The translations under genes and the position numbers were made by a program. A model generated the notes under the pieces. It was not told the origin of the DNA. It saw only the letters and a program-made list of their open reading frames with translations, and made no database searches. A DNA stretch of 39,531 bases from a virus, in the IMG/VR virus record IMGVR_UViG_3300025616_000016, positions 1-39,531 of that record. One strand, written 5' to 3'. This document shows positions 7,220-30,757 of this stretch, one piece after another; position 1 is the stretch's first letter, and each line of letters starts with the position of its first letter.

Positions 7220-7729
7220 ATGAAAACAATAAATTACATAGTATTAGCGATAATCTCCGCAGTTTTATGTGCATGTTCTACCGTAAAAAAAGAACCACAT
7301 AATCAATTTAATAAGAAGGAATTTGCAAAGAAAATGCATCTAGTATCTGTTCCTGAACTATCTTGTGTACAGCAAAAAATGATTGCACGTATTACTTTTT
7401 ATAATAAACGAGAAGCAGGTGGAGATAGATTAGCATCATCTTCAAAAGGTCGTGCAAAAGAAGGAATTACTGTTGCTGCTCATCCAGATTTTGCTTTTGG
7501 AACTAAAATTGTTATACCTGCTTTAAAAGATAAAGTTGGAAATGGCAATTTTACTATTGAGGACCGTGGTACAGCAGTAACAAAAAAGAAGGCATCTCAT
7601 GGAAAAGCCTTCGTTTTCGATATTTATGTCAATGTAGCTTCAAGAAAAGATGCAAATAAGAAACTTACAAAATTAGAACAAGAAATTGGTGATTATGCTG
7701 AAGTTTATGTTCTAAAATCAGGAAGTTAA
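7220..7729 (+). CDS. Lipoprotein with 3D/RlpA-like double-psi barrel domain
   Basis: 169 residues from the ATG at 7220; an in-frame TTG at 7199 would add seven residues but spoils the signal peptide start. MKTINYIVLAIISAVLCACS is a lipoprotein signal with lipobox L-C-A-C (Cys19), so the protein should be anchored in a host membrane. The remainder resembles the 3D (Asp-Asp-Asp) or RlpA-like barrel: ITFYN, ITVAAHPDFAFGTKIVIPAL, FTIEDRGTAV and KAFVFDIYVN, with Asp residues where the family keeps them. Related domains bind or cleave peptidoglycan. The gene is reversed within the head operon and its stop overlaps that of the convergent endonuclease gene by 3 nt. A moron-like role (cell-envelope modification, lysis or superinfection exclusion) is inference. 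Confidence 0.75.
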   Translation: MKTINYIVLAIISAVLCACSTVKKEPHNQFNKKEFAKKMHLVSVPELSCVQQKMIARITFYNKREAGGDRLASSSKGRAKEGITVAAHPDFAFGTKIVIPALKDKVGNGNFTIEDRGTAVTKKKASHGKAFVFDIYVNVASRKDANKKLTKLEQEIGDYAEVYVLKSGS

Positions 7730-9819
7730 TAAAAATTTAAACGGAATTTATGATGCCCACAATCATATACTCTATAAAATTTAGAATTGTTCATATTTTC
7801 TTCTTCTGTTTTATTAGGATCAAATTTATCACCAAGCAATTTAGATAATTTATGCTTTTGACATTGATATCTTGAATATTGCATGTTACTACCACCATTA
7901 TAAAAATATCCAGGTTTTGTTATTCCTTCATATATAAATCCCGCACGTTTATAGCAACTACCTTCAAATAAATTATTATCAGAATATGTTATAAGTTCTG
8001 TTACCTTTAATATATTTTTAACATATGATATGAATTTCTCTATTCCTCCAATAATATAAAAATTATTCATTGTTACATATCGAATTAATTCTTTAGCATT
8101 AGAATTTTTATTAGTAAATCTATTTTCACCTATAGAAATATAAGATACTAATCTATTTTTATAAAACATCCCAATATGATTTAATGCCGCAGAAAATCCA
8201 TTAAGATGATATTTTTCACTAAACTTTCGTGCAACTTCTGGTGTAATACTTTTTATTTTACATTTTCTACCAAATATTTTATATTTATTACCTTTTATTT
8301 TATTACGTATGATACCATTGACTATTTTAGGTGTTATCATAATCGACTTACCCCAAAAATGTAATAAAGATATCCCCTGTTCCTTACATAATTGTTTTTT
8401 CTCTAGATGATAGTTTTTATCAGTATTATACTTAGTGCTATGCCAATATTCTCCATTACATTCTATTGCAATTTTTAATTCTGGTATATAAATATCCAAT
8501 TCTCTGGATTTTATAACATCTCTACAATTTTTATTATATGTTATATTCATCTTATCTAACATAATTCCTACATATTGTTCTAATGTTGAATTTTTAAAAC
8601 GTCCTATTGGTGGATATCCGGTGTAATAAGCATTAAATATTTCATTGTTACAAGTTTTTCTCCAAGGAAATTTCTTATTAGTATCTTCTATCCATTCTTC
8701 TATAGTAAATTCTGGTATACAAAGATGTTTAAATCTTTTAAAGTTATCATATGCTTTTATTTTAGCATCCAACTTTGACTTTTCTCGTATTTCAGGTAGA
8801 TTCATACAACACGTTACTCCATATTTTTCTAAACATGTATCCTTTGATTTTTGAGATATTTCTTTTAGTTGCATCGGATTTTCAACGCCATATTTTTTTA
8901 AAGAATTTTCTTTTCTTGTTTGTATAGATCTTTCTGTCCAATCTCCATGTATTTCTTTAAAATGATCCATTATTTTAGATGGATTTTCTACACCATACTT
9001 TTCCATACAAGTATCTGTATATTTTTCAAGTTTAGTTCTTGTATCTAATGCTTTAATCCTATCATTTTCTATTCGTTTTATTTCATTCAACTCTAATCTT
9101 TTATCGAATGCCTTTTTCTTATTAACATCTAATTTAAATGGAGATGATACTCCATATTTTTCTATACAAGTATTCTTTCGTTTTTCTATTGTTTCTTCAG
9201 TTACTATTTTTCCAGTATGTTTTATAGAACTTGCAATATGCGATGCTTCAGTTGATGAATATACCTGATAACAAATACTTTTTATATTAAATTTTCTTTT
9301 TATTTTAGCAATATCACAAATAGGGATTTCTTTATAATTTTCTCGATATAAATGAAATGCTTCTTCATTCGATTCTATAATATTCAAATCAAATCCTCGT
9401 TTTTCTAATTGAACCCAACAATGATTAATAAAAATAGGATATCGCTTTGATACATTAGCCTTCATTTTTCTAAATTCAGTTTCTATTATAGTTTCATCAT
9501 ACTTATAATACAATTTTTTTATCTTACTTTCTAATTTAGTTTGGGGAAATATAAAATTTAATACTCTAAGTTTACCTAATCTATTATAATATGTTTTATT
9601 TATACTCTTTATTAAGTTTCCAGTTATAGGACACTTATAAGTTTCATCAATATTATATGCAATACAGAAAACTCTCTCTTTGAAATCATCATTTTTAATC
9701 CATTTCGTAATAGTATTGATTTGTGATATTTCTTCCTCCGTAAATAATCCCGCCTTTCTTCGTATTACATATTTCCCTTCTTCTATAAGTCTTAAGCACT
9801 TTTCTTGTAATGTTTCCAT
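7726..9819 (-). CDS. Vsr-like homing endonuclease with four KYGV repeats and GNAT-like C-terminal domain
   Basis: 697 residues, the largest of the three related nucleases here. A residue 1-110 region carries CPITGNLIK. Four repeats follow between about 215 and 355: CIEKYGVSSPFK, CMEKYGVENPSK, SLKKYGVENPMQ and CLEKYGVTCCMN, each followed by a basic helix. The Vsr-like core is near 405-490 (SRELDIYIPELKIAIECNGE, YWHST, ISLLHFWGKS). The C-terminal domain (GRKCKIKSITPE, YHLNGFSA, RYVTMNNFYIIGGIEKF, YSDNNLFEGSCYKRAGF, VYDCGHHKF) is full length. It sits between the neck gene and gene 21, and has its own sigma70-like promoter, so it appears to be an inserted selfish gene. Confidence 0.85.
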   Translation of the reverse strand: METLQEKCLRLIEEGKYVIRRKAGLFTEEEISQINTITKWIKNDDFKERVFCIAYNIDETYKCPITGNLIKSINKTYYNRLGKLRVLNFIFPQTKLESKIKKLYYKYDETIIETEFRKMKANVSKRYPIFINHCWVQLEKRGFDLNIIESNEEAFHLYRENYKEIPICDIAKIKRKFNIKSICYQVYSSTEASHIASSIKHTGKIVTEETIEKRKNTCIEKYGVSSPFKLDVNKKKAFDKRLELNEIKRIENDRIKALDTRTKLEKYTDTCMEKYGVENPSKIMDHFKEIHGDWTERSIQTRKENSLKKYGVENPMQLKEISQKSKDTCLEKYGVTCCMNLPEIREKSKLDAKIKAYDNFKRFKHLCIPEFTIEEWIEDTNKKFPWRKTCNNEIFNAYYTGYPPIGRFKNSTLEQYVGIMLDKMNITYNKNCRDVIKSRELDIYIPELKIAIECNGEYWHSTKYNTDKNYHLEKKQLCKEQGISLLHFWGKSIMITPKIVNGIIRNKIKGNKYKIFGRKCKIKSITPEVARKFSEKYHLNGFSAALNHIGMFYKNRLVSYISIGENRFTNKNSNAKELIRYVTMNNFYIIGGIEKFISYVKNILKVTELITYSDNNLFEGSCYKRAGFIYEGITKPGYFYNGGSNMQYSRYQCQKHKLSKLLGDKFDPNKTEEENMNNSKFYRVYDCGHHKFRLNFY

Positions 9820-10836: not shown

Positions 10837-12747
10837 TTATGCTTCTGGTGGTGGAGTTTGTTCAGTAGGGGCTTCTGTACCTCCTGCTGGTGCTTCTGTA
10901 GGTGTTTCTGCCTCTCCTGCTTCTGGTGGTGCTTCTGCTTCCGCATTGCCAAATTCTGGTGGCATTTCTGCGCCTCCAATTTCACCACCTGATGGCATCT
11001 CCCCACCTCCACCTCCTCCCCCACCTGCTGGCGCACCTTCTCCTTCCACTGCCCCACCTGCTGCTGCCGCAATTTGTTCTCTAAAATTAGGACCAGATGC
11101 TTTAATTTGAGTTAATTCCCATTCTAATGCAGCATCTTTTCTTAACCATTCACGATTTTCAGTCATTTGTTCATCCGTTAATCCCAAATAATACTTTTGT
11201 GCATATGAAGGAGCCATTGATTGGTTTTGAGTAGATGTAGAGAAGTTATCAAACTTAAGTTTTAATAACTCTTGTTCTCTCATAGCCATAAATGACGTAG
11301 GAACGTTAAATTCAACATTAACTGCACGTTCTCTTAGTTTACATTCTTTCCATATTTTGCGTAATTTTAAATGAACTATAAAACTATCTCTAATGCTAGT
11401 CGCAAATTGTCTTTGAATACGAATTATATAACGTGCAAAACGCAATTCTTCTCTAGTTATTTCAGTTCCATCAGTAAATTTAGCAGAACCGCCAGAATCC
11501 ATGATAAATCTACTTGCAGGAACTTTCATTGCTTTATATAATTTCTTGAGGAAATATTCCAAATCTTTCATTTCTCCGAGGTTTGATCCACCTTGAAGTG
11601 TTGTTACATCAGTACCATTTCCTTGTGCATCTTTCGGGAACCAATAAGAATCAAGCATACTTTGTGGGTCATAAACGTTAGTAACTCGACCACCTTGAGG
11701 TCCAGATCCACCAGATGTAGTATCATAATTCTTTCTGCTCCAATATTGTTGCATTAAACGTTTTAAGTATGCTTCGGCTTTTGGTGCTGGCATATTTCCA
11801 GTAAATACTTTAAATACCAAACGTTCTGGTGCTCTAACTAATCGATAAATTACTATACTATCTTCAATTAATGATAGTTGTCTATATGCTCTTTTTGCAT
11901 TTTCTATATATGGAAGTCTAATCGTTTTAAATTCATTCCAAATACCAGTATGAACATAAGTAACTTGACTCTTTTGCAAGAATAGTATCTCTTCTTTATC
12001 CTTTTTATTAATACTTGTTAAAGGTTGTATTAATGGTTTTATTAATAAGTAACCTTTAATTAATTCATTTTGGGTATTTTGGTAAACTGGATTGATAAGT
12101 TCGCTTGGAATACTAACAATTCCAACAATTCCTAAATCTGGATTATCTTCATCTATAATATTTTCAAAAAACAATTCACCATCTGTTAAAAACTGTCTAA
12201 AATATTCCCAACCAGTATCTTCTAAGTCATAAATATTAATAAACTTTTTAAATTCTTTTTCTACAGTATCTTTTATTTCTTGAGAATAATCTCCTCGTAA
12301 TTGAAACGTAACAATGTTATCATTTTCATCCTTTACGATACATTCATCTGCAATTTCATCCATACAGTCTGCCATTTCTGCGTATGATGCCATTCTTCTA
12401 TAATCCATTAATCGATTAGTTTTATCTTTATCTACACTTGCATAAACAAATGCTTGATAATCTTTATTAATGATAATACCTGCTGAAGTGCTATCGCCTA
12501 AATTTGGATCATTGGGTTGAGAAACAAATATAGATTCATCATTTATTAAATCATCTCTTCTTGATGTAACATCTCTAAAAATTTCATATTTAGGATTTTT
12601 TCTTACCATTGAATCAATAATTTGATAAGCGTATGGTAATTTAGATATAAATGCCCCTAATAAATTAGATTGTGGGAATCCTTGATTTGTTGTAGGATAT
12701 TGCCCACTTTGAGGTATTGCAGCTGGTGCATAAGGTTTTTGTATCAT
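10837..12747 (-). CDS. 20: Portal vertex protein, T4 gp20-like, with low-complexity C-terminal tail
   Basis: 636 residues (T4 gp20 is 524). Family signatures are clear: DYRRMASYAEMADCMDEIAD near residue 123, FLTDGELFFENI, VRAPERLVFKVFTGNMP, and the run VTTLQGGSNLGEMKDLEYF followed by LKKLYKAMKVP (T4: EITTLPGGQNLGEMDDVNYFQKKLYKALNVP). It forms the 12-subunit portal through which DNA enters and leaves the head. The final 80 residues are an Ala/Gly/Glu/Pro tail with a run of eight glycines and PTEAPAGGTEAPTEQTPP; this stretch of DNA is much richer in C/G than its surroundings. A 27-nt separated ATTAAATA may be a weak late promoter. Confidence 0.95.
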   Translation of the reverse strand: MIQKPYAPAAIPQSGQYPTTNQGFPQSNLLGAFISKLPYAYQIIDSMVRKNPKYEIFRDVTSRRDDLINDESIFVSQPNDPNLGDSTSAGIIINKDYQAFVYASVDKDKTNRLMDYRRMASYAEMADCMDEIADECIVKDENDNIVTFQLRGDYSQEIKDTVEKEFKKFINIYDLEDTGWEYFRQFLTDGELFFENIIDEDNPDLGIVGIVSIPSELINPVYQNTQNELIKGYLLIKPLIQPLTSINKKDKEEILFLQKSQVTYVHTGIWNEFKTIRLPYIENAKRAYRQLSLIEDSIVIYRLVRAPERLVFKVFTGNMPAPKAEAYLKRLMQQYWSRKNYDTTSGGSGPQGGRVTNVYDPQSMLDSYWFPKDAQGNGTDVTTLQGGSNLGEMKDLEYFLKKLYKAMKVPASRFIMDSGGSAKFTDGTEITREELRFARYIIRIQRQFATSIRDSFIVHLKLRKIWKECKLRERAVNVEFNVPTSFMAMREQELLKLKFDNFSTSTQNQSMAPSYAQKYYLGLTDEQMTENREWLRKDAALEWELTQIKASGPNFREQIAAAAGGAVEGEGAPAGGGGGGGGEMPSGGEIGGAEMPPEFGNAEAEAPPEAGEAETPTEAPAGGTEAPTEQTPPPEA

Positions 12748-12804: not shown

Positions 12805-14619
12805 TTAAATAGTGGTAGTTGTCAAATATGTTCTTAAATCTATTGCATATGATATTAATGCCGTGTTGGGTTTTATGTTAGTTTGTGATATATAAATATT
12901 CATAATACTTGATACATAATCAACCCAAACATATACTGGTGTTCCTTGAACTCCATATATTGGTAATATTGGAGTAGACATGGTGAATATAGGACTTGCG
13001 GTAATAAGTGATGATGCAACATCGCCATTAACATCGATTTCTACATGATTAGTATTTGGATCAAATTCTGAATTATAAAATGTGTCTAAACTTACTGATA
13101 TACTATTTAAAATACTACTATAACCTAATCCACCACCTCCACCTCCAGCAATATTAGTATTACTTTGTAATATAAATGATAAACCATCTGCATGTCCATA
13201 ACCACCACCCATTGCAACTGTAAATGTTGCATTCCAATCTATTAAATTGCCATTTTTATCAATAATAATTTGAGGATTATTATAATATATATTACCACTA
13301 GTATCTCCAATATTTGGCGTTAATCTTATTAAGTTATTAATATTAATAGCATTTCCTAATAAAATAGAATCTTGTAAAAATCCAGAAAATAATAGATTTT
13401 GATAATCGCTATTCCATGTCATATCATATAACCAATGTTCATTCCAACGTGATCCTGTACCTGCACCAAATCCAATATAACATGCATTTTTACCTAATAT
13501 TGGTATAATAATTGGGTGTACAGGATCTATTGTTCTAATCGTCGGAAATGTTGTTAATTCCGCTCTTGATTTTGTATTAATAATAGAAAAATTATTACCA
13601 GTTTGAATTCCGTACATATTACCATTAATACTATTACGAACTTTCATAATATGCAATGGAGCACTATTTATAGTATCATATGAAATAGGACCAACAACAG
13701 TATTTGCTATAGAATTCTGATTGGTATTCATACTATATGCTGTAATAGAAGGATAGAATGATGATATTGAACTAACTATTTTTGTATATGTATGAATTGC
13801 GTTATAATTTCTAGGATCATTTATATCATTTGGATATGCTCCAGTATATATAAAACTAGTATCAGGGGTTGAATATCTAGTAACGGTTTTAATGTCAGAT
13901 CCATCACCAAAATCCCAAATTATACGTTCATATGGAAAACTACCACATAATGATGCACTTGGACATATTTGTATAGTTAATGGGGATGTTCCAATTGCTG
14001 GATTTATATTAGTATGTAACTTTGCTATAGGTAAAATCTCTAAAACTTCTATCGCATCAATTAATGAACTTTGCGTATATGAAACTGCATAATAATTAGA
14101 AGTTTGTGTATTACAACTAGCATCTACAATTTTAGAATTTCCCCAAGTTGCTGTATTATTTCCAATTGTACTAACATCTTTCCAAGTAAGAAAATTAGGA
14201 GTATTGGATTGTAAATTTAACCAATTCCATGTTTTACAAAATTTACCAAAACATTTATTTTCAGTAATAGGTGTAACTATAGATAATAAAGATAAAATAT
14301 TTTCTTGAATAGTTAAAGATACAGAATATTTACCGGGCATTGTATATGTATGGGATACATTTTCTTTTGAAGATGTTGTAATAGTGTTTGTATATTGATT
14401 GTAATAATCTCCAAAATCCCATATATAATATGCATAATCATTTGTTGTTAAATTATCTAATGTTGAAGTATTTTTAAAACTAACCGTCAATTCTGGTGCA
14501 TATCCTTCTATATCATATCCTACAAATGTTGCATTAGATGATGTTGTTGGATATATGCCATTCCATTTAAAGGTATTTGACACTGTTGATCCGCTTAAAA
14601 TATAGAAATTAGATGTCAT
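12805..14619 (-). CDS. Putative adhesin: two PKD domains plus L-type lectin domain
   Basis: 604 residues. PKD domain 1 spans about 40-105 (YYIWDFGDYY, then SHTYTMPGKYSVSLTI). PKD domain 2 spans about 198-298 (RIIWDFGDGSD, AIHTYTK). Residues about 405-600 resemble an L-type (legume-like) lectin: GHADGLSFILQ (476-486) carries the metal-site Asp, SISVSLDTFYN (506-516) matches the VEFDT strand, and DPNTNHVEIDVNG (520-532) matches the second metal and sugar loop. A six-glycine run precedes the LDTF strand. Known domains of this kind bind carbohydrate, so the protein probably sits on the virion surface or tail tip and contacts host glycans. It is first downstream of the giant structural gene and just upstream of the portal gene. 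Confidence 0.8.
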   Translation of the reverse strand: MTSNFYILSGSTVSNTFKWNGIYPTTSSNATFVGYDIEGYAPELTVSFKNTSTLDNLTTNDYAYYIWDFGDYYNQYTNTITTSSKENVSHTYTMPGKYSVSLTIQENILSLLSIVTPITENKCFGKFCKTWNWLNLQSNTPNFLTWKDVSTIGNNTATWGNSKIVDASCNTQTSNYYAVSYTQSSLIDAIEVLEILPIAKLHTNINPAIGTSPLTIQICPSASLCGSFPYERIIWDFGDGSDIKTVTRYSTPDTSFIYTGAYPNDINDPRNYNAIHTYTKIVSSISSFYPSITAYSMNTNQNSIANTVVGPISYDTINSAPLHIMKVRNSINGNMYGIQTGNNFSIINTKSRAELTTFPTIRTIDPVHPIIIPILGKNACYIGFGAGTGSRWNEHWLYDMTWNSDYQNLLFSGFLQDSILLGNAININNLIRLTPNIGDTSGNIYYNNPQIIIDKNGNLIDWNATFTVAMGGGYGHADGLSFILQSNTNIAGGGGGGLGYSSILNSISVSLDTFYNSEFDPNTNHVEIDVNGDVASSLITASPIFTMSTPILPIYGVQGTPVYVWVDYVSSIMNIYISQTNIKPNTALISYAIDLRTYLTTTTI

Positions 14620-14627
14620 ATTATTAA

Positions 14628-17600
14628 TTATGTTGATATTACATTAAAATTATAATCAGTATACCCATAATTATTAGTAAGTCTAACTGGTATCATATAA
14701 TCACCTATTTGTGTTGGTATTCCACTTAAAACTCCAGTAGTAGAATTTAATGATACAAAATTAAATGTATTATTAATTAATGTATAATTTGTTACTGTAT
14801 TTAATGCATAAAGATTAAATACAAATGATGATAAGGTAGTTGATAGTATATTTGTAGTTTTAGTTAATTCTAAATTTCCTAATATTGGAGGTAAAGGTTC
14901 ATTATTAGTTGTTGTATATACTCCAATATTAATTAAAGGATATCCATAAACATTTTTAATATAAACTTCTATTAAATCATTAAAACCAGAAATATTACTA
15001 ACTATCGTAGATAATAAATATTCTTTAGAGACATAATCATAACTTAATAATGGTCTATCAACAATATTAGAATATCCTAATAATGCCATAAATACTGACG
15101 CATCTTGAAAATTATTTGGAAATATCTTTTGAAAATTGCTTGTATTTATATCTAAACTATATAATTCTACATTAAAAACTCCAGAAGATAACCAAACCAC
15201 ACTAACAATAAGTTGTTTTTCTATCGGAGAAAACCAATATTCACCAATTTTAGCAAAATCATAATCATTTAAATTCGTATTATTAAGTTCTTTATTTATA
15301 TTAGAGGTTAATGGTAATGCTAATGATAGATATTTTGATTTATTTGACTGTCCCGTAATTTTATCTGTTGAATAATCATAATTTAAAGTTTCTATTATTA
15401 ATACTCCAGATGTTTCAATAATCATAGTATCAAAATATATATCAAAATTTTTAATACCATTTCCAGTTAATTCATCATATAAATTAGAATTAATATATGG
15501 TGAAAATATAGATGATAATGCAATATTTGCTGCATTAACAGTTTGTCCATTAGTTCTAATCCAAAGTTCACCAAGAACTTCATTTCGTTCAATGGGAGAT
15601 ACACTACTTATATTCTTATATAAGGTATATTGATTTCCAAATATATCTGAACACCAATTATACATTTGTTTACCAGTAGTTTTTAATACTTGAGTTTCTA
15701 CCCATGAATTTACATTAACTTCCCCTGCAAAATTAATTGGGTAATTTTTAGTATCTGTCCAAACACTATCTTGATATCCCCCCCAAGGACTATGACGACT
15801 ATTCGGTTTAATAACACCTAAACTACCATTATTATGAGTTTCAATATCAGATTGGTATGGTATAAATTTTTGATATTTTTTAGAAATTGCTCTATCAACA
15901 TTTCCTGCTGAATTTCCTGTTAATATAGATTCTTTCATCCATGTATTATCTTCCTTTATTATATTATATGGAGTATACGTATCCTTTTTTGATAATCCCC
16001 TGCCACCAACTATAAATTTCGAATCTTCTACTAATGCAGAAACTTGAATAGAAGATGTATTATAAATTGATGTATAATTTTTACCAACATATACTGAAGC
16101 CCCTAAATTATTAGGAATAAAATATCCACCACTATCATATTCAGTATATAAATCTTGTAATGTAGGAATTAACGCAAAAGAAGGATAATTTCTATTAGAA
16201 AGATTTGCATATGGTTGATAACTTATAATTGCAGAACTTAATGAAAAATCGCTCTGTGTTAATGTATTAGTTATTGCCTTTACTGCTGTAATATTCCATA
16301 CAAAATTACCTAATGAATTATAATATATTTCTACTAAATTATTATTTACATAGTTATTAAGAATAATATCACTAGGAATATCTAATGCACTAGCATTTAA
16401 TACTAAAGAATTACCAACTATACTTGATAATTGAGTAGTTTTACTATTCATTAATATTTTATTCCAAGTTGTGGTATTAACTCTCTTTCGTAATGTAATT
16501 GGTTGATTCCAAGAAAGATCATTAGAATTATTTTGATATTCGAAATAAATATCACTATTCAATACTATATCAGATATTATTGGTTGTGATACTATATTAT
16601 GTAAATCAACTACGCTTAGTGATGAACCCCAACTTTCTATAGATTTATTATTAGTTACAACTGATTTATCTGTATACCCTTTAACCCAAATAGGTCTAGC
16701 CCCTAAAGATTTACCATCATATGTAAATATATTATAATTCCAACCATATAAATCCGTTTCTAAAACAAATCCAGGAACTGGTGTGCTATATGATGTAATA
16801 GACGGAACATATGTTTGTTGCGTTGATGCTGATATCACTGGAATATTAGTAAATGCATAAATTCCATTATTTAATATACCTGGATACTTACTAAATGCAT
16901 TTGAGTTTATATATGCTGAAAGTGATACTAAATAATTTCCAGTAAGATTAGGAACAAATGATAATACAAAATTAGAATCGACTACTACATTAGTTATAGT
17001 TGATGTATATGATGATGTTCCCGTAATATTATAAGAAATATTTCTTATAACTGGATCGGATGTATATATAGTTCCATTAGGATCAGTTAATTTCCAATGA
17101 ATTGCTGATATATCATTCATTAATACGCTTGGATATTGTTGATACGTTGCGGTTAAGGATGAAACATTTATATTACTATTGGTTGGATAATTTACATATA
17201 TAGAACCTATATTTGGTTGGTCTATAACAACATGATCATAAGTAGACCAAATTGTATTTATATTTTTACTTACATCATTATCTCCATTAATAAACCCTGA
17301 TAATATAAATGAAGATATCGGTGTTTTTTGATATAATAATACGTCATTAGCATTAAAAATCATATCCGATGGTTTATTTCCATTATACCAAATATCATTA
17401 GCAACATCATGAAATCCTTTTATCCATATCGTATTATTTGAAGTATATGCATGTCTAACTGTATAATCAGGAAATGCAGAAAGGGTTAAATCTTGTGTTG
17501 ATGTAGTAGTTCTATAATAGATATAAGCACTTCCTTTTTTAAGCAACATATTATTACTCCAACTTCCATATCCCCAATTTGGAGTAGATAATGTTGAATT

Positions 17601-19679
17601 AAACCATGTAAAATCTGAACTATTATTATATCCTAATAAATCACTACCAACCCAAGTATTTAAATCAAATTCCAAAGGAGAAAATGTATCTAATGCTATA
17701 AAATCCGCAACACTTCCAAAATCAGTATAATTCATCCCATTATGTCCAAATGGGGTGAATTGAACTTGTCTACATGTGCATAATGCATTATTATTAGCAT
17801 TTAAATTATTTAAATATAAACAATTATTTTCATGTTTCGTTGAAATAAATATAGTATTAACTAAAGTATCATTACCAGTCCAAACAAATCTAGTTTTTGT
17901 TCCTGATTTAAAATTTGCAGTAAACCCTTTTTGTGAAATACTTTTAAAATTATTTTTTGTAATATCTGATCCTGATAGCCATGCACATTCTAACGCATTT
18001 GATTGTGTGGATTGATAATTAGGAACTTTATATATAATATCCGCAGAACTTATATGATTAGATGCTGTCGCGTATGGTATATATAAAGCCGATAATGGCA
18101 TAGAATTACATATATTAGTAGTAGAAACATCAGGAAATGCATCAATATACGTAATAATATTATCATCTAATTTGGTATATGGCCATTTAATAGTAGTAGA
18201 ATCTCCTGAAAGTATTGATAAATTAGTTTTTGTAATTTTATATAACCATGCTTCTGATATATCTCCATTATAAGACGATTGGGATATATCAGGAGCGATA
18301 TCCCATGTTCTTATTTTATTAGCATGAGTATATAAAGAATTTGCATATGCTCCATAATCTACTAATGTTGTATTATTAATATTAATAGGTAATGTTGAAC
18401 TTACAGAATAAATAGAACTCCAATAAATTTCTTCAATTGCTTTCTTATATCTATTATCCAAATATGTAAATGTTGGATCATAGGTTAAGGATGGACCAGT
18501 CCATTCTAATGAATCTCCACTTAATCCATATCCTGCAAATGGATATCTAAATATTGTTTTAGAATTTGCACCAAAAAAAGCATTAATTGATAAATCATTA
18601 GAAATATCATACTGTTTATAATTTAACCATGCGCCATTTATTCCATCAACACTTTTAACAAAAATAGTATCTGCTAAATCAATACTCGATCCTCCAATTC
18701 CAAGAGTTTCAATATTAGCAGAACTTAATGGAAGGGATTTATATATTGGATAACTATATGCTAATGATTCATATACACCAAATGGATAGTAGAAAAAATT
18801 ATTACCTTCTACTATATTTACAGCATAATAATCATTAGAAATACTTGATGCTTGAACATTAATAGTATATTTCGATTCTCCTAAATATTTTCCTTGATCG
18901 TTAATTAAATCTATTGCGGATAGATTTAATGCTGATAGATCAAAAGTTCCTGCTGAGTATGCCCAATCTAAAGATGTTAATGATAATCCTAAACTATTAA
19001 AATAGGTTTCTGTTGTTATGTCTTGATTATTTATGTAACTAGATAGTGGAATCTCTAAACTTCTATCAAAATATTGATGATCATCATATAATTCTTCTAT
19101 TTCTATATTAATTGTATCATTAATAGCACTTAGTTCTGGTAAATTTGTCCATACTGAAGCAGGAACTGTTATATAAGTATTACTTCTTTTACTATAATTA
19201 GATAATATAACATCAGTTAATTCTTGTATTCCTCCTCTTACAGAACCTACCAAGTTATATTTTAATTTTGTTTCTTTTAATTTTTTCCTTTGTTGTAAAT
19301 AATATAAAGAAATATTTTTTAATTTAGTTGCAAAAAATGGAATTTCTAATAATAATTCCTTTTCATCACTAAGATTAACATTACTATACCATGTTTCTTT
19401 CTCTATATCAGTTAAAAACATCTGTAATCCGTTTAATAAATTTAAATATTTTATACGAATTAAATTTAAAGAATTTGTCTCAGTTTGATTTTTATTTTGA
19501 TACCAAGTTATTAAATATTGATTATATTGTTTATATGCTTGATCAGGAATTACATTTGAATATGTTGCATACCAATCTTTAAAAGAAAATGGAAAATCTT
19601 TATCTAAATCAGGAGATACTAATCTCAAAGGATTTGAATATTTTTCTAGTTGTTGAGGAGTATTAAATAAAGTTTGCAC
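14628..19679 (-). CDS. Giant virion protein, 1683 aa, with baseplate-like N terminus and Ig-like end
   Basis: Starts with GTG at 19677-19679; a late-promoter variant lies 12 nt upstream. The first 170 residues are helical and aromatic (FPFSFKDWYATYSNVIPDQA, then YKQYNQYLITWYQNK), unlike the rest, and look like an attachment region to the baseplate. The remaining 1500 residues are Ser/Thr/Asn/Tyr-rich beta sequence without transmembrane segments. The last 80 residues (LNSTTGVLSGIPTQIGDYMI, then PVRLTNNYGYTDYNFNV) match the putative Ig (He_PIG) pattern. I recognise no enzyme domain. Its place between the PKD-propeller and PKD-lectin genes, 8 nt from the latter, suggests a long tail fibre or baseplate appendage. 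Function is inferred from context only. Confidence 0.65.
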   Translation of the reverse strand: MQTLFNTPQQLEKYSNPLRLVSPDLDKDFPFSFKDWYATYSNVIPDQAYKQYNQYLITWYQNKNQTETNSLNLIRIKYLNLLNGLQMFLTDIEKETWYSNVNLSDEKELLLEIPFFATKLKNISLYYLQQRKKLKETKLKYNLVGSVRGGIQELTDVILSNYSKRSNTYITVPASVWTNLPELSAINDTINIEIEELYDDHQYFDRSLEIPLSSYINNQDITTETYFNSLGLSLTSLDWAYSAGTFDLSALNLSAIDLINDQGKYLGESKYTINVQASSISNDYYAVNIVEGNNFFYYPFGVYESLAYSYPIYKSLPLSSANIETLGIGGSSIDLADTIFVKSVDGINGAWLNYKQYDISNDLSINAFFGANSKTIFRYPFAGYGLSGDSLEWTGPSLTYDPTFTYLDNRYKKAIEEIYWSSIYSVSSTLPININNTTLVDYGAYANSLYTHANKIRTWDIAPDISQSSYNGDISEAWLYKITKTNLSILSGDSTTIKWPYTKLDDNIITYIDAFPDVSTTNICNSMPLSALYIPYATASNHISSADIIYKVPNYQSTQSNALECAWLSGSDITKNNFKSISQKGFTANFKSGTKTRFVWTGNDTLVNTIFISTKHENNCLYLNNLNANNNALCTCRQVQFTPFGHNGMNYTDFGSVADFIALDTFSPLEFDLNTWVGSDLLGYNNSSDFTWFNSTLSTPNWGYGSWSNNMLLKKGSAYIYYRTTTSTQDLTLSAFPDYTVRHAYTSNNTIWIKGFHDVANDIWYNGNKPSDMIFNANDVLLYQKTPISSFILSGFINGDNDVSKNINTIWSTYDHVVIDQPNIGSIYVNYPTNSNINVSSLTATYQQYPSVLMNDISAIHWKLTDPNGTIYTSDPVIRNISYNITGTSSYTSTITNVVVDSNFVLSFVPNLTGNYLVSLSAYINSNAFSKYPGILNNGIYAFTNIPVISASTQQTYVPSITSYSTPVPGFVLETDLYGWNYNIFTYDGKSLGARPIWVKGYTDKSVVTNNKSIESWGSSLSVVDLHNIVSQPIISDIVLNSDIYFEYQNNSNDLSWNQPITLRKRVNTTTWNKILMNSKTTQLSSIVGNSLVLNASALDIPSDIILNNYVNNNLVEIYYNSLGNFVWNITAVKAITNTLTQSDFSLSSAIISYQPYANLSNRNYPSFALIPTLQDLYTEYDSGGYFIPNNLGASVYVGKNYTSIYNTSSIQVSALVEDSKFIVGGRGLSKKDTYTPYNIIKEDNTWMKESILTGNSAGNVDRAISKKYQKFIPYQSDIETHNNGSLGVIKPNSRHSPWGGYQDSVWTDTKNYPINFAGEVNVNSWVETQVLKTTGKQMYNWCSDIFGNQYTLYKNISSVSPIERNEVLGELWIRTNGQTVNAANIALSSIFSPYINSNLYDELTGNGIKNFDIYFDTMIIETSGVLIIETLNYDYSTDKITGQSNKSKYLSLALPLTSNINKELNNTNLNDYDFAKIGEYWFSPIEKQLIVSVVWLSSGVFNVELYSLDINTSNFQKIFPNNFQDASVFMALLGYSNIVDRPLLSYDYVSKEYLLSTIVSNISGFNDLIEVYIKNVYGYPLINIGVYTTTNNEPLPPILGNLELTKTTNILSTTLSSFVFNLYALNTVTNYTLINNTFNFVSLNSTTGVLSGIPTQIGDYMIPVRLTNNYGYTDYNFNVIST

Positions 19680-19715: not shown

Positions 19716-22700
19716 TCATTGAACATCCATCCATAAATTTTTTGTTAGTAAATAATTGAATATACTATCAACAATTCCATTTTCTATATACCAATCAGCG
19801 GAAAGTGTCATATCTAATGTTGTATATGGACTATTCCAATCGATAATATTATTTGTTAATGTATTTGTTCCACTTAAATTACATCCCCATAACCTTTGAC
19901 GAGATACTGATGCAAGATCTAACATATTTTTTATTTCAGCAGGAAAATTGTTACCATAATCAAATAATGGTTGATCAATTTCAAATGCTAAAGATTTTAA
20001 TTGATCTATATTACATGTATCTACATCTGACACATTTGATGTAAAATTTGCAATTTTTGAATAAATTTCTTTTCCCATATCTTCAAAAAGATTTGAATTC
20101 GATATTGTTCCATCACCAACAACAGCAGGTAAAAATTCATCAAATAATTGCGTATTATCATATAAAACTTCTGGAAATGCTAATGATTTCATATATCCTG
20201 CCATATTAAAACTTTCATTAACTTTTCTTATCTCATATGAATTATTAAAATCTGCAACATTAAAAGGTGCGGATACTCCAGATAATATTAGATTAGATGA
20301 TAAATCTTCTGCATATTTTTGATACCATACATTTCCAGTCCAATCTCCAGTAACACTTGCAGATTTTGCAATATTTGAACTTACTACACTTACAATAGTA
20401 TCATCAGTATCAGAAAAATAGTATATTAAATTAGGTCTTTGTTTTGCATTAATAACAGTAACATCAGTATTTGTATTAAATGTTGGATCAGCATTAAACA
20501 TATGTGCATTATTTGTTATAGCATCAACTACCCAAACTCTATTATACACATCTACTGATAATGCGCCAATTTCTTCATCATCTTCAAATGGTGATAATAT
20601 TTCAGATGATGGAGAAAATATTACTCTTGGCGAAGTATCATTAAGTGTAGTGGAAGGTATACTAAACGACCAAGTATTTATAATAGTTTTACTAACACGA
20701 TCTATATAACCAAAACTTCTTACCCCAAATGTAAACCAAATATTATTATTGGCATCCAATGAAATATAATTAGGAACATTTATACCAGAAATAGATGTTA
20801 ATAATGTTCCGGTTTTACTATATTGATTTATTCTTCCTAAAATTGTACCCGAAGTTGTTGATGTTGATGTGCCAAACGATTCAGTAACCCAAATATTATT
20901 TAATTTGTCAACTGCAATATTCATAGGAGTTGAATTTGCTGATAAGGTAATATTAACTGATGATAATCCTGCTGATGTATATTTAATAAGAGCACTAGAA
21001 TTTGGATTGCAATATGTAACCCAAATATCATTATTCCTATCAGTTTCTACAACAGGAGGTTTCATTAAATAATCATCATATAATCCAAATTCTTGAGTAT
21101 TATTAGGACATATCGCAAATAGAAAATTAAAATTCTTATCAAACTTTAAAACTGATAAACTATTATATAAAGAAATCCATATATTAAAATGTTTATCAAT
21201 ACTTATATATGAAGGAGTAGTTGGACTAGTTACAGGATCTTCAGTTATAATACTTGATAGATTTAATGTGCTTAATAAAACTCCAAAACTTGAAAATTTA
21301 TATAAACAATCTTGTTCACCATCAACTGCTAAAATTTCATAATTTCTAGGATCAATTGCTATACCATATATACCAGAAAATCCAGACATATTATAGTTAA
21401 AAGTATTATTATTAGTTACTACCGGAACAGGAAATTTTAAAATAGATCCTTCTACTACTAATCCATTACTTCTATAATAATCTACAGTAGGACAATTAAC
21501 TGAAATTGTAGGTTGTGGGGTATATATAATTTTACTAATAGATCCTATATCTGGAGTAGGAATAACAACAAAATTATTAGGAGCATATTTAGAAGGATAT
21601 TGAAATTTATAATCACCTACAGAAATATTATTTGCTGTAGTATATGCGATTAATGTTACATTATCAAACGCACTAGATGAGGTAACTGTAGTAAATCTAT
21701 AACCTCCATTTCTAAATCCATTATCATCAGTAGCAATAAAATATAATGGAGTATCTTCACAAGATATTGAAGTCATACCTGTTTGTGAAGATAATTTAAA
21801 ATTTATAGTATTTACTTCTCCTTCGATATTACTATTAGGATATGTAAATACTACGCCAGTAGCAATATCAATACCATCAGTACGTTCATTAAGAATATAA
21901 TCTCTACTATAACTATGTGCAGTAATCATAGTAGGAATTTTAACATTTGTCCATTTTTGTGGATAAATTTCGTCAATATAATTTCCAGTAACTCTTAAAT
22001 AATCAGGAGATATATCTCCAACTTGCCATGTAGTAACAGCACGAGATACTTTACTATTAGAAAAACTTTTATATGAATATATATTCGAATCTAATGGATT
22101 GATAAATCCAGATGTTTGTAATGTTGCAGATATTAATAATGGACAATTATTTGTAATATCACCACTACCAATACTATCAACATAATAAACTGATGCTTCT
22201 GCGGATGCTCCAACAACAGTATTATTATAATATATAGGTTGTGATGATAATACTATATTAGTTACTGCATTTATTCCTGCGGGATCTGTTGTAAATTTCC
22301 ATGTAGGATTTATAAAATTCCACTTTTCAGGAACTTCTTGATATGGTATAGATTTAGAATTAACAGCATATAATTCTAATATAAGAGGTTCAGATGATAA
22401 TGGTATTTGTGCAGAAAATACTTGAACGATAAATGGTGATGTTGTTGGCATACCGACAAGACCATAAGCAGTTGGTAATGCGAAAAATGTAACATAATCA
22501 TCAACATAAGATGATGCAGTTATATTCATATTTGAGGTGCTAAAATTATTATAAGCATCAAATGTAGAAAGCGTTACTGTATATATTCCAGCATAGTTAT
22601 AAATATGATTTACAATATTTTCATTATAAATATAAGTTCCATCCCCAAGATTCCAAATAAGTTGAACACTACTATTATTTATACCTGTATTAGAATTAAC

Positions 22701-22775
22701 AAAGGTAAATTCAGTTGCGTATATATATCCAATTGAATCTGATGCTAAAGTAAAATTTGATGTTAAATTTGACAT
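19716..22775 (-). CDS. Baseplate-associated protein: PKD domain, NHL-like propeller, baseplate C-terminal domain
   Basis: 1019 residues. An N-terminal PKD domain spans about 5-90 (LIWNLGDGTYIYN, NHIYNYAGIYTVTLS). Residues about 465-765 hold at least five NHL/SMP-30-type blades, each with a D-x-x-x-N-I-W-V core: ISIDKHFNIWISLYN, VETDRNNDIWVTYCN, IAVDKLNNIWVTES, ISLDANNNIWFTFG and LSVDVYNRVWVVDA. The last 160 residues (SYEIRKVNESFNMAGYMKSL, FDEFLPAVVGDG, IANFTSNVSDVDTCNIDQLK) resemble the C-terminal domain of phage baseplate proteins seen near gp6. The stop is 36 nt from the giant gene, and the start is 1 nt from the gp6 stop, so it is in the baseplate operon. It is probably a virion component with a binding role. 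Confidence 0.75.
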   Translation of the reverse strand: MSNLTSNFTLASDSIGYIYATEFTFVNSNTGINNSSVQLIWNLGDGTYIYNENIVNHIYNYAGIYTVTLSTFDAYNNFSTSNMNITASSYVDDYVTFFALPTAYGLVGMPTTSPFIVQVFSAQIPLSSEPLILELYAVNSKSIPYQEVPEKWNFINPTWKFTTDPAGINAVTNIVLSSQPIYYNNTVVGASAEASVYYVDSIGSGDITNNCPLLISATLQTSGFINPLDSNIYSYKSFSNSKVSRAVTTWQVGDISPDYLRVTGNYIDEIYPQKWTNVKIPTMITAHSYSRDYILNERTDGIDIATGVVFTYPNSNIEGEVNTINFKLSSQTGMTSISCEDTPLYFIATDDNGFRNGGYRFTTVTSSSAFDNVTLIAYTTANNISVGDYKFQYPSKYAPNNFVVIPTPDIGSISKIIYTPQPTISVNCPTVDYYRSNGLVVEGSILKFPVPVVTNNNTFNYNMSGFSGIYGIAIDPRNYEILAVDGEQDCLYKFSSFGVLLSTLNLSSIITEDPVTSPTTPSYISIDKHFNIWISLYNSLSVLKFDKNFNFLFAICPNNTQEFGLYDDYLMKPPVVETDRNNDIWVTYCNPNSSALIKYTSAGLSSVNITLSANSTPMNIAVDKLNNIWVTESFGTSTSTTSGTILGRINQYSKTGTLLTSISGINVPNYISLDANNNIWFTFGVRSFGYIDRVSKTIINTWSFSIPSTTLNDTSPRVIFSPSSEILSPFEDDEEIGALSVDVYNRVWVVDAITNNAHMFNADPTFNTNTDVTVINAKQRPNLIYYFSDTDDTIVSVVSSNIAKSASVTGDWTGNVWYQKYAEDLSSNLILSGVSAPFNVADFNNSYEIRKVNESFNMAGYMKSLAFPEVLYDNTQLFDEFLPAVVGDGTISNSNLFEDMGKEIYSKIANFTSNVSDVDTCNIDQLKSLAFEIDQPLFDYGNNFPAEIKNMLDLASVSRQRLWGCNLSGTNTLTNNIIDWNSPYTTLDMTLSADWYIENGIVDSIFNYLLTKNLWMDVQ

Positions 22776-22776
22776 A

Positions 22777-24582
22777 TTATATTATTACTATTTTATTAAT
22801 AAGATTATTTAAATCGAATAAATATGGATATTCGAAAAAATTAAATACTATATTATTCGTTGTCTGTAAAGTATCTAATGATGAATAGTCAGGGTTCCAT
22901 ATAAATAACGACAATCCATTAATTTGAACACTATTATCAATTCTTCCAGTATAAAAACTATCAATACCATTAATATTTAATATTTGTTGTGATAGTGAAG
23001 TAATATCAAGAGTTTGTCCTAATGTAAGATTAGATTTACTAAAATATGATGTAAATATATTTATAACGTCCTTAATAATAGATGAATTATCTCTATTATT
23101 ATATACATTTTTTTTAATATATAATCGACTTAAACTTTCATCAGTAACGGTAATATTTGTATTAGAATTATTAGAATTAGTTCCTATTGCTACTGCTTTA
23201 TATACAGGATCAGCATATGCAATTTCAGCAGTCATACTCTTTAATAATTGTACAGAAGTTGTAATTAATTCCTTTTGTGGTGGTAATAAATATGATAATG
23301 TTGTATTATCTACAGTTCTAGGAACAATAAATAAATAAACATTATTAAAATTACATGCATCTGAAAATTGAAATTGATTAAATAATGCTCTACCATTTAA
23401 AGAGGGGTCAGTTAATCCTAAATTATAAAAATATTGTAAATATTGTGTTGTATATGTAATATTATCAACAACTGTAACATCAGATATTAAATTAGAAAAA
23501 TTAGTATTTATAAAAGATTTATAATCATTTTCTGTTACTAATCTATATTGACTACGAAAAACAGAAGGAGCTGCAGCACGTATTTCATCCGGTGTTTGAA
23601 TAGTTTGAACTGGAGTAGATGCAGATTTATTAGAAAATGATATATATGCTAAATCAGAATTTGATATTATATCATAAGAATTATTTGATAATACACTTGC
23701 AATAATCTGATTAAATTGTGTTGTATTATATTCAGTTGCTTTAGCGGATGTTATAGCATTTTTACCAACTTCGCCAACACTTCCATCACTTTGTAGATAA
23801 TATACTGCAACTTTATCATTCGGTTGTAGTTTTACTCCATTAATATCATCTCCGAATGTGATTTCATATTGATTATTACCATTTAATCGGATTTCATATT
23901 TTTCTGCTATACTATTTTCTAAATATAGACTATTACTTTTTGTATATTGCGACCAAATACCTAAATTATTTCTATTTACATAAACATCAATATTAAAATG
24001 ATCGATATTAATATTAGTTGCAGGAGAAAGTAATACCATTTCATTTTCATCTCCAATTGCTGTATATAAAGGATATTCCTGATAACTACCTTGATATAAT
24101 AATGCTTGACTACTTAACTCTGTTAATCCTTCTGAACTTAGTGATACAGTTTTAACAAATGTTTGCTCGGAATTAAAAGAAAATTTTATACCATTAACAC
24201 TAACTGAAGTATATCTAGGTATAGTATAAGTTCCTGCATTTAATGTATCTACAGTTGCTGAAAATGGCAATGTAGAAGTTTGATATCCTAATGGATTATA
24301 ATCAAGTAATTTTACTATTCTATTTATATTTTCATATAACTGTGCCTCTGTAAACATAGATTCAGATGCAGTTTTATTTAAATAATACATTAATGTATTA
24401 AATGTATAAGCCACAATATCAATAACTGATGCAAGATTACTTCCTATATAATTTTGGTCAGTAAAAACTTGTGTAGTATTTAGTCGATCTAAAATTAATT
24501 GTCGTAATGAAGTTGCATCAAAGGCAACATATTCATTTGATGGTATATTGTAATTATTAAAATTCGTATTATTTGTTGCCAT
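22777..24582 (-). CDS. 6: Baseplate wedge protein, T4 gp6-like (gpJ family)
   Basis: 601 residues (T4 gp6 is 660). The N terminus has the conserved LRQLILDRLNTTQVFTDQNY, then NLASVIDIVAYTFNTLMYYL and ENINRIVKLLDYNPLGYQTS. The middle has IRAAAPSVFRSQYRLVTEND, followed by YKSFI, the hallmark of gp6/gpJ proteins. It forms the ring of baseplate wedges around the hub. It begins 6 nt after the gp25 stop and ends 1 nt before the propeller gene, so the three are one transcriptional unit driven by the late promoter at 25101. Confidence 0.92.
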   Translation of the reverse strand: MATNNTNFNNYNIPSNEYVAFDATSLRQLILDRLNTTQVFTDQNYIGSNLASVIDIVAYTFNTLMYYLNKTASESMFTEAQLYENINRIVKLLDYNPLGYQTSTLPFSATVDTLNAGTYTIPRYTSVSVNGIKFSFNSEQTFVKTVSLSSEGLTELSSQALLYQGSYQEYPLYTAIGDENEMVLLSPATNINIDHFNIDVYVNRNNLGIWSQYTKSNSLYLENSIAEKYEIRLNGNNQYEITFGDDINGVKLQPNDKVAVYYLQSDGSVGEVGKNAITSAKATEYNTTQFNQIIASVLSNNSYDIISNSDLAYISFSNKSASTPVQTIQTPDEIRAAAPSVFRSQYRLVTENDYKSFINTNFSNLISDVTVVDNITYTTQYLQYFYNLGLTDPSLNGRALFNQFQFSDACNFNNVYLFIVPRTVDNTTLSYLLPPQKELITTSVQLLKSMTAEIAYADPVYKAVAIGTNSNNSNTNITVTDESLSRLYIKKNVYNNRDNSSIIKDVINIFTSYFSKSNLTLGQTLDITSLSQQILNINGIDSFYTGRIDNSVQINGLSLFIWNPDYSSLDTLQTTNNIVFNFFEYPYLFDLNNLINKIVII

Positions 24583-29164: not shown

Positions 29165-30757
29165 TTAGGTAAACCTAACAATATTTGGTAAATGAATTGA
29201 TCCACCATCTTGATTAGGTAACGCTCCATCCGCATAATTTCCATTATATCCACATGTCAATACTCTACCATTTGATAATAATATTTGTAAATTATTATAT
29301 ATATTATGTTCAGGACTTCCCATTCTTGCTTTTATAACTTTAACTCCACTACCAATTGCTAATGGAACTTGTACAAAATAATTTTGCTGAACATTATTAC
29401 CAATACCAAGTTGTCCATAACCATTATAACCACATGTCCATACTGATATATTTCCAGTTTGATTTATGTCTCTAGTAATAAGAGTGGAATAATCTGATCT
29501 ACTAACAGTTTTAACATTAGTCATAGAAGTTAAAACTGGAGAATTCCTTTGTGTTACATCTCCTAATCCTAATTGTCCATTTCCATTATATCCCCACGAA
29601 TATAACGAGCAATATCCCACACCATTGCTACTAAGGGCATATACCGAGGTGCTTTCACAAGAACATTGTAAATCTATTATATTATTAAGTCCAGATATTA
29701 TAGTAGGAGTATTATATTGCGTAGCAGGAGTATTATATGTTCCTTGCCCTAATTGTCCATAAGTATTATAACCACAAGAATATACATTACCTCCATAAGT
29801 TATAAAATATGTAGAAGAACCTGTAGTATTAGCATATCCACTAGTTTTGATTGATACTATACTATTTGAGGTACCTACTGTAATATTAGATATAGAAGAT
29901 ATTATAGTTGGTAATAAATAATTTATATTATCACCTTGTCCTAATTGTCCTAATCCATTATATCCACATGATACTATATATACTTTACCCGCTTTAACTG
30001 CAATAGCAAACATAATACCTGTTGTAGTATAACCACCAGCAATTATATCAGTATAATATGTATTTAATCCAGCAGTATTTGAAGGATCTATTTGTATTGG
30101 TGTATGTTGATCGGTTGTATTTCCTACTCCTAATTGTCCTGCATTATTACATCCCCAAGACCATATTGTGCCATCAGTTTTTAATGCATAAGCAGAAAAT
30201 CCTGAATTATCATAACCAACTGGATTTCTAGATAATTCAAGTTTTTTAACATTAGATAATATCGGTATACTACAAAAAACGTTAAGCTTTGCATTATCAG
30301 CATTACTAGAAGCTCCACCACCAGTCCCATAATTTACATATCCTGAAACCCAAACTTTTCCCAATGTAGAAAGTAAATATGTAGAACGTGTTGTGCAATA
30401 TATACTCTTAATTGAATCTCCAGTATCATTAGGATTCCATCCATTTATACTACAAATTTCTGGTTCAGTTGCTCTATAACCTACATAATTATTTGCTAAT
30501 TGTCCATAACCATTATATCCATTTGCTCTAACCGTATTATCAGCCATTAAATAAAAGTGATTCGTATCCCCTGATCCGTTTTCCCAATCAACAACAGTAT
30601 TACATGCTTCTTGAAAATATGAATTAGCTATTATATTAACTTTTCCACTTAGACCATATAATAATGTATCAAAATTATTAGAGTTAACATTAATAGAAGA
30701 TAGAGAGGTTCCTATACATTCAGACCCGTTAATTGTAATTGTTCCGTAATAGCTCAT
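29165..30757 (-). CDS. RCC1-type beta-propeller protein, putative virion adhesin
   Basis: 530 residues. RCC1 repeats occupy most of the length after residue 80: GYNGYGQLANN, SWGCNNAGQLGVGNTT, SCGYNGLGQLGQGDN, SCGYNTYGQLGQGTYN, SWGYNGNGQLGLGD, TCGYNGYGQLGIGNN and TCGYNGNYADGALP, consistent with a seven-bladed propeller. The N-terminal 70 residues (TITINGSECIGTSLSSINVN) form a separate beta region, which may attach to the virion. RCC1 domains usually mediate protein binding; in a phage late gene an exposed tail-tip or fibre role is the natural inference. An exact TATAAATA precedes it by 7 nt, and a strong terminator follows. Asn/Gly-Tyr content is high. Confidence 0.85.
   Translation of the reverse strand: MSYYGTITINGSECIGTSLSSINVNSNNFDTLLYGLSGKVNIIANSYFQEACNTVVDWENGSGDTNHFYLMADNTVRANGYNGYGQLANNYVGYRATEPEICSINGWNPNDTGDSIKSIYCTTRSTYLLSTLGKVWVSGYVNYGTGGGASSNADNAKLNVFCSIPILSNVKKLELSRNPVGYDNSGFSAYALKTDGTIWSWGCNNAGQLGVGNTTDQHTPIQIDPSNTAGLNTYYTDIIAGGYTTTGIMFAIAVKAGKVYIVSCGYNGLGQLGQGDNINYLLPTIISSISNITVGTSNSIVSIKTSGYANTTGSSTYFITYGGNVYSCGYNTYGQLGQGTYNTPATQYNTPTIISGLNNIIDLQCSCESTSVYALSSNGVGYCSLYSWGYNGNGQLGLGDVTQRNSPVLTSMTNVKTVSRSDYSTLITRDINQTGNISVWTCGYNGYGQLGIGNNVQQNYFVQVPLAIGSGVKVIKARMGSPEHNIYNNLQILLSNGRVLTCGYNGNYADGALPNQDGGSIHLPNIVRFT

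Follow-up and report, generated by a model that had tools for sequence, protein, structure and literature searches.

An L-type lectin circularly permuted at the gene level on a PKD-PKD scaffold of an uncultivated far-T4 myophage

Canonical strand order is not a defining feature of L-type lectins; mature concanavalin A (ConA) also departs from it, with its new N-terminus lying just before the metal loop. The phage protein described here resembles ConA in being a circularly permuted L-type lectin, but its permutation is in the gene and the cut falls in another loop, between the YAIDL and YIGF strands, whereas ConA is permuted after translation through cleavage and religation by asparaginyl endopeptidase (PMC10979261). 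The natural permutation known in legume lectins is post-translational, and a literature search, with most subscription journals outside its coverage, found neither gene-level permutation of an L-type lectin nor phage L-type lectins. Compared with the legume/L-type lectins of PF00139 (such as 7elv of Methanocaldococcus jannaschii and pea lectin), the protein has the same predicted fold, ADG Asp, Gly-rich loop and Asp-Asn-Asp-His metal/sugar loop, but differs in the rotation at the gene level, a Ser in place of the transition-metal Glu and the fusion to a phage PKD scaffold. Modular Ig-like adhesins with exchangeable domains are reported from gut phages of crAss-like and Flandersviridae-like type (PMC13370021); both are phage adhesins with exchangeable domains, although the adhesive fold and the phage groups differ. 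The tail-collar short fibres (PF07484) of related phages have an N-terminal ECIGDSLxxINxNF module in common with one of the permuted lectins (contig L044), in which the lectin replaces the collar domain, while the protein described here uses a PKD-PKD (PKD2) scaffold and not this docking module.

The window analysed is a 39,531-nucleotide stretch, positions 1 to 39,531 of the IMG/VR virus record IMGVR_UViG_3300025616_000016, and the features of the lectin gene and its neighbours are given in Table 1. By capsid protein, the nearest phages in the annotated collection are cyanophages at ~34% identity, and the window therefore represents a lineage without a close cultured member in that collection. 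The lectin protein has no match in the PHROG phage family library. Two PKD domains had been proposed for it in the initial annotation. The first is confirmed by Pfam (PKD_4 at aa 45-106, 1.7e-12); the second, with WDFGDGSD at aa 235-242, scores 15 bits, below the Pfam cut-off of 27, yet is modelled as a separate, confident beta-sandwich. The conserved R-N anchor and hairpin mark the end of the region common to the window protein and its lectin-less relatives.

Table 1. Coordinates of the lectin gene, its parts and neighbouring genes in the window
Feature	Position	Strand	Remarks
Whole ORF, 604 aa: PKD, insert, PKD-like, hairpin, linker, circularly permuted L-type lectin	12805..14619	-	
PKD domain 1, aa 1-113	14281..14619	-	Pfam PKD_4 and predicted beta-sandwich, pLDDT mostly ~90
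Cys/Trp-containing insert, aa 114-173	14101..14280	-	Low model confidence; length varies in relatives
PKD-like domain 2, aa 174-312, with WDFGDGSD	13684..14100	-	Confident predicted beta-sandwich; kept in most of 36 loci
Conserved R-N anchor and predicted hairpin, aa 313-350	13570..13683	-	
Flexible linker, aa 351-376	13492..13569	-	pLDDT < 50
Permuted segment, aa 377-404, YIGFGAGTG-SRWNEHW..MTWN	13408..13491	-	Canonical C-terminal strands and loop D, placed first
Remaining lectin jelly roll, aa 405-604	12808..13407	-	Canonical strand 1 to pre-cut strand (SYAIDLRTYL)
Asp478 of ADG loop	13186..13188	-	ConA Asp208 equivalent
Metal/sugar loop, aa 510-525	13045..13092	-	S510, D512, F514, N516, D520, H525
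T4-type portal gene	10837..12747	-	Portal_T4 1.1e-103; adjacent only in this genome
1683-aa upstream neighbour	14628..19679	-	Homologues in other phages have the permuted lectin at their own C-terminus
1019-aa PKD-containing protein	19716..22775	-	Syntenic neighbour
Baseplate wedge gp6-like protein	22777..24582	-	PHROG 219, 2.6e-31; syntenic neighbour

The ORF contains a genuine legume/L-type lectin domain. Lectin_legB (PF00139) matches aa 409-601 at 1.2e-24, with 87.7 bits against a curated cut-off of 26.3, whereas the match to PF18483 stays under its own cut-off (56.7 versus 78.3 bits). The motifs reported in the initial annotation lie where they are expected (ADG at 477-479, LDTF at 511-514 and DPNTNH at 520-525). 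The structure prediction that it had proposed yields a legume-lectin jelly roll (AlphaFold, pLDDT 84.1, pTM 0.86), the best structural matches of which are all legume lectins (Z ~16-19). The predicted lectin model aligns with 7elv at Z 17.1 and rmsd 2.4 over 167 residues, and the full-length model, built from an input alignment in which every lectin-region sequence is permuted, aligns better (Z 19.0, rmsd 1.9 Å over 168 residues). In the latter the lectin (aa 378-601) has pLDDT mostly of 85-97 with some loops lower, and the sugar-site loops are of moderate confidence only. A search of the viral structure library was uninformative for the lectin; with the whole chain it gave low-TM matches, to phage proteins of Ig/PKD type. 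The fold is thus well supported by the predicted models. The lectin call of the initial annotation was right; it overlooked the main anomaly, that the domain is circularly permuted.

The canonical linear strand order is not present in the window lectin. The YIGFGxGTG..NEHW segment, normally the end of an L-type lectin, comes first, and the ORF stops where this segment should begin. The Pfam match ends at position 209 of 250, which is the end of the ORF, and the absent end of the domain (YIGFGAGTG..NEHW..W) sits at aa 381-402, preceding the canonical first strand. A canonical profile built from 29 canonical bacterial and archaeal lectins matches the window in two non-collinear pieces (aa 416-597 to profile positions 11-190, and aa 370-401 to 188-219). 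When the same profile is reordered into a rotated version, all nine phage sequences give a single continuous match with a gain of 14-28 bits for the best domain (from 111.7 to 134.0 bits in the window), while the mean score of the 29 canonical cellular lectins drops from 233 to 194 bits (~39 lost). The moved segment of the window reaches 16.5 bits, and the best of 5000 shuffled versions only 8.6; in L044 the tail-only profile gives 0.4 bits, which is not above shuffles, and the permutation is visible by the rotated profile only (80.0 to 94.0 bits). Independently, with phmmer, query residues 63-177 match 7elv 13-123 and residues 13-36 match 7elv 177-199, out of order (the second match is weak alone). 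When the parts are rejoined canonically in a test query, the Pfam match extends to 236 instead of 209 and scores 96.1 instead of 91.8 bits; the moved segment alone, too short for such a search, has no match in Pfam or PDB. The moved segment has high confidence in the AlphaFold model. In a sequential structure alignment, model residues 39-235 pair with residues 2-205 of plant lectin chains; the first 38 model residues and the last ~25 residues of the matched chain stay unaligned, so that the moved piece drops out at both ends. A gene-level circular permutation of the lectin is therefore well supported.

The PKD2 part that carries the lectin, the first ~350 aa, recurs in at least 36 loci, which form a family with variable C-termini. 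Among the relatives listed, L001 has nothing there, L005 an LRR-like region and L006 and L008 NHL-type propeller repeats with a PT stalk (all three read by eye), L013 a 190-aa domain, and others short tails; a separate branch has proteins of 1227-1610 aa with PKD2 fused at their end. The gene order gp6 - 1019 aa - 1683 aa - PKD2 is kept in most contigs long enough. Since the 350-aa scaffold has no functional family assignment, calling it baseplate-associated rests on this gene order. The adjacency to the portal gene pointed out initially is true of the window and not general: a portal match near the PKD2 gene is found in 0 of 14 related loci examined, so the adjacency does not argue for a neck location and says nothing about function. 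The 1683-aa homologues in L043 (459-5699) and L054 (1507-6702) contain a von Willebrand A domain (~aa 820-920) that Pfam does not find in the window protein.

These data suggest that the window protein is probably a virion tail or baseplate adhesin of an uncultivated far-T4 myophage, with a permuted-lectin plug-in on a PKD-PKD scaffold that probably binds a host glycan. We infer sugar binding, virion location, the role in adsorption and the host for the window protein; the glycan-binding virion adhesin proposed at first is the best reading and a plausible one, because in relatives the lectin domain sits on a tail-fibre docking module and on a baseplate-region protein. The N-terminal PKD-PKD part would be a scaffold built into or onto the tail, with its C-terminus serving as a highly variable plug-in position. 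Here the plug-in would be the permuted lectin, attached via a flexible linker of ~25 aa and predicted to fold as a normal legume-lectin jelly roll, with the putative Ca-site and core sugar-site residues retained (Asp478, the Gly-rich loop 492-497, Asp512, Asn516, Asp520 and His525). As the phage adsorbs, the lectin head would then probably bind a glycan on the surface of its bacterial host. Judging from the strand order of ConA, the new N-terminus presumably lies across the fold from the sugar site, so that the binding face would be turned outward from the stalk.

A different role, in which the glycans bound are not those of the host (but of mucus, exopolysaccharide, algal or particle surfaces) and the lectin head holds the phage close to its hosts without taking part in the receptor-binding step, is unlikely, though it deserves weighing. 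The module is absent in the nearest relative, L001, and so may be dispensable for infection, and the gut-phage Ig-like adhesins are reported to be modular and to bind epithelial surfaces (PMC13370021). The lectin of L044, however, lies on a module that bears tail-collar domains in related phages, which is the setting of a receptor-binding fibre. Its N-terminal module (ECxxDSLxxINxNF) is common to many small proteins of related phages, some with the Pfam Collar domain. The neighbour of this lectin, a 1343-aa protein at 5721-9749 of L044, contains a GLEYA/PA14 domain, of a sugar-binding type that also occurs in yeast adhesins. The same docking module (ECIGxSLxxIN) also starts a 530-aa RCC1-repeat protein of the window (29165-30757, minus strand), probably another tail fibre with a beta-propeller head.

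Most of the residues expected of a binding site are kept. By alignment, D208, D10, N14, D19 and H24 of ConA would correspond to D478, D512, N516, D520 and H525, while the position of ConA Glu8, the plant transition-metal ligand, is Ser510. The Glu8 equivalent is lost in eight of the nine phage sequences (G, S, L or M in the relatives) and kept as Glu only in L120; L044 has also lost the His. These losses, together with the moderate confidence of the modelled sugar-site loops, could indicate that the lectin fold is only a structural spacer or capping domain which no longer binds sugar. We consider this improbable, because all aligned phage sequences retain the ADG Asp, the Gly-rich loop and the equivalents of Asp10, Asn14 and Asp19 despite an overall identity of 41-52%, and because animal L-type lectins manage with a Ca site that lacks the transition-metal Glu of plants, which is hence not defining for the superfamily. 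With the Glu lost in all permuted sequences except that of L120, a Ca-only lectin of the animal type, probably still competent to bind sugar, is plausible from these alignments.

The same permutation with the same cut point is found in ten other IMG/VR phage contigs and on five other scaffold types, making six in all: PKD2, the C-terminus of a ~1,700-aa protein, a unique N-domain, the docking module and two kinds of PT stalk. L039/L040 and L041/L042 encode proteins of 303-306 aa with their own unique N-domain; in L043 and L054 the lectin is the C-terminus of a homologue of the 1683-aa neighbour; in L044 it forms a 281-aa protein with the docking module; L117 and L119 carry it on a PT-rich stalk; and in L120 (31% identity) the PT stalk lies on both sides. 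The L117 (5500-6675) and L119 (5620-6675) proteins are near-identical, come from two samples and differ by ~40 aa in the length of the PT-repeat stalk. Although the window is a metagenome contig, the possibility that the permutation is an artefact of a truncated tandem lectin, a frameshift or mis-assembly is extremely slight and was rejected, given the identical order and cut point in ten other contigs and six scaffolds, the mere 57 bases from the stop to the portal start, the unbroken fit of the rotated profile and the confident models of the permuted chain; it would require a shared assembly error in all eleven contigs, which is very unlikely.

As far as searched, the gene-encoded permutation is confined to phages, where it provides a natural experiment on the effects of permutation in a lectin. 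The permuted profile matched in 82 of 888 cellular genomes taken from three phyla, always in canonical order; no match starts before model position 31, so that the moved segment in phage order is never covered. In tblastn searches of 50,697 phage records, no match was found for the whole protein, two phage lectins, a canonical bacterial lectin or the 1683-aa neighbour, in line with the rarity of the lectin fold in phages remarked on initially. A single-sequence pattern scan found no lectin relatives in viral or cellular contigs, and relatives surfaced only once a 7elv fragment joined the query alignment. A canonical lectin scan of viral contigs, limited by pattern sensitivity, gave no confirmed relative.

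In the lectin tree, the nine distinct phage sequences form one group of eight, with the most divergent, L120, outside it. The identical cut suggests a single origin, and the sequences would fit one or two permutation events depending on L120. The nearest relative, L001, is 65% identical in gp6 and 49-50% in the PKD2 and 1683-aa proteins but lacks the lectin. L041 and L054, which do carry it, are more distant, at 43% in gp6 and 26-31% in the 1683-aa protein, yet keep 45-52% identity in the lectin. This identity pattern fits exchange of the lectin module, to which different constraint could also contribute, and far-T4 phages would then exchange a binding domain across different scaffolds. There is, in our view, about an even chance that the permutation originated in phages and gave rise to a lectin lineage of their own, moved ready-made between unrelated tail scaffolds with the sugar site outward; such movement is proposed because the new termini, on the far side, would allow attachment to a stalk. 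The permuted lectins mark a class of probable glycan-binding phage heads that has no name in the PHROG library. Elsewhere in the window, a 697-aa homing-endonuclease-like protein (7726-9819, minus strand; phrog_3339, 3.5e-92) lies among the head genes between the protease and the neck genes, and a perfect 42-bp tandem repeat of 3.5 copies (36425-36571) lies within a 627-aa ORF.
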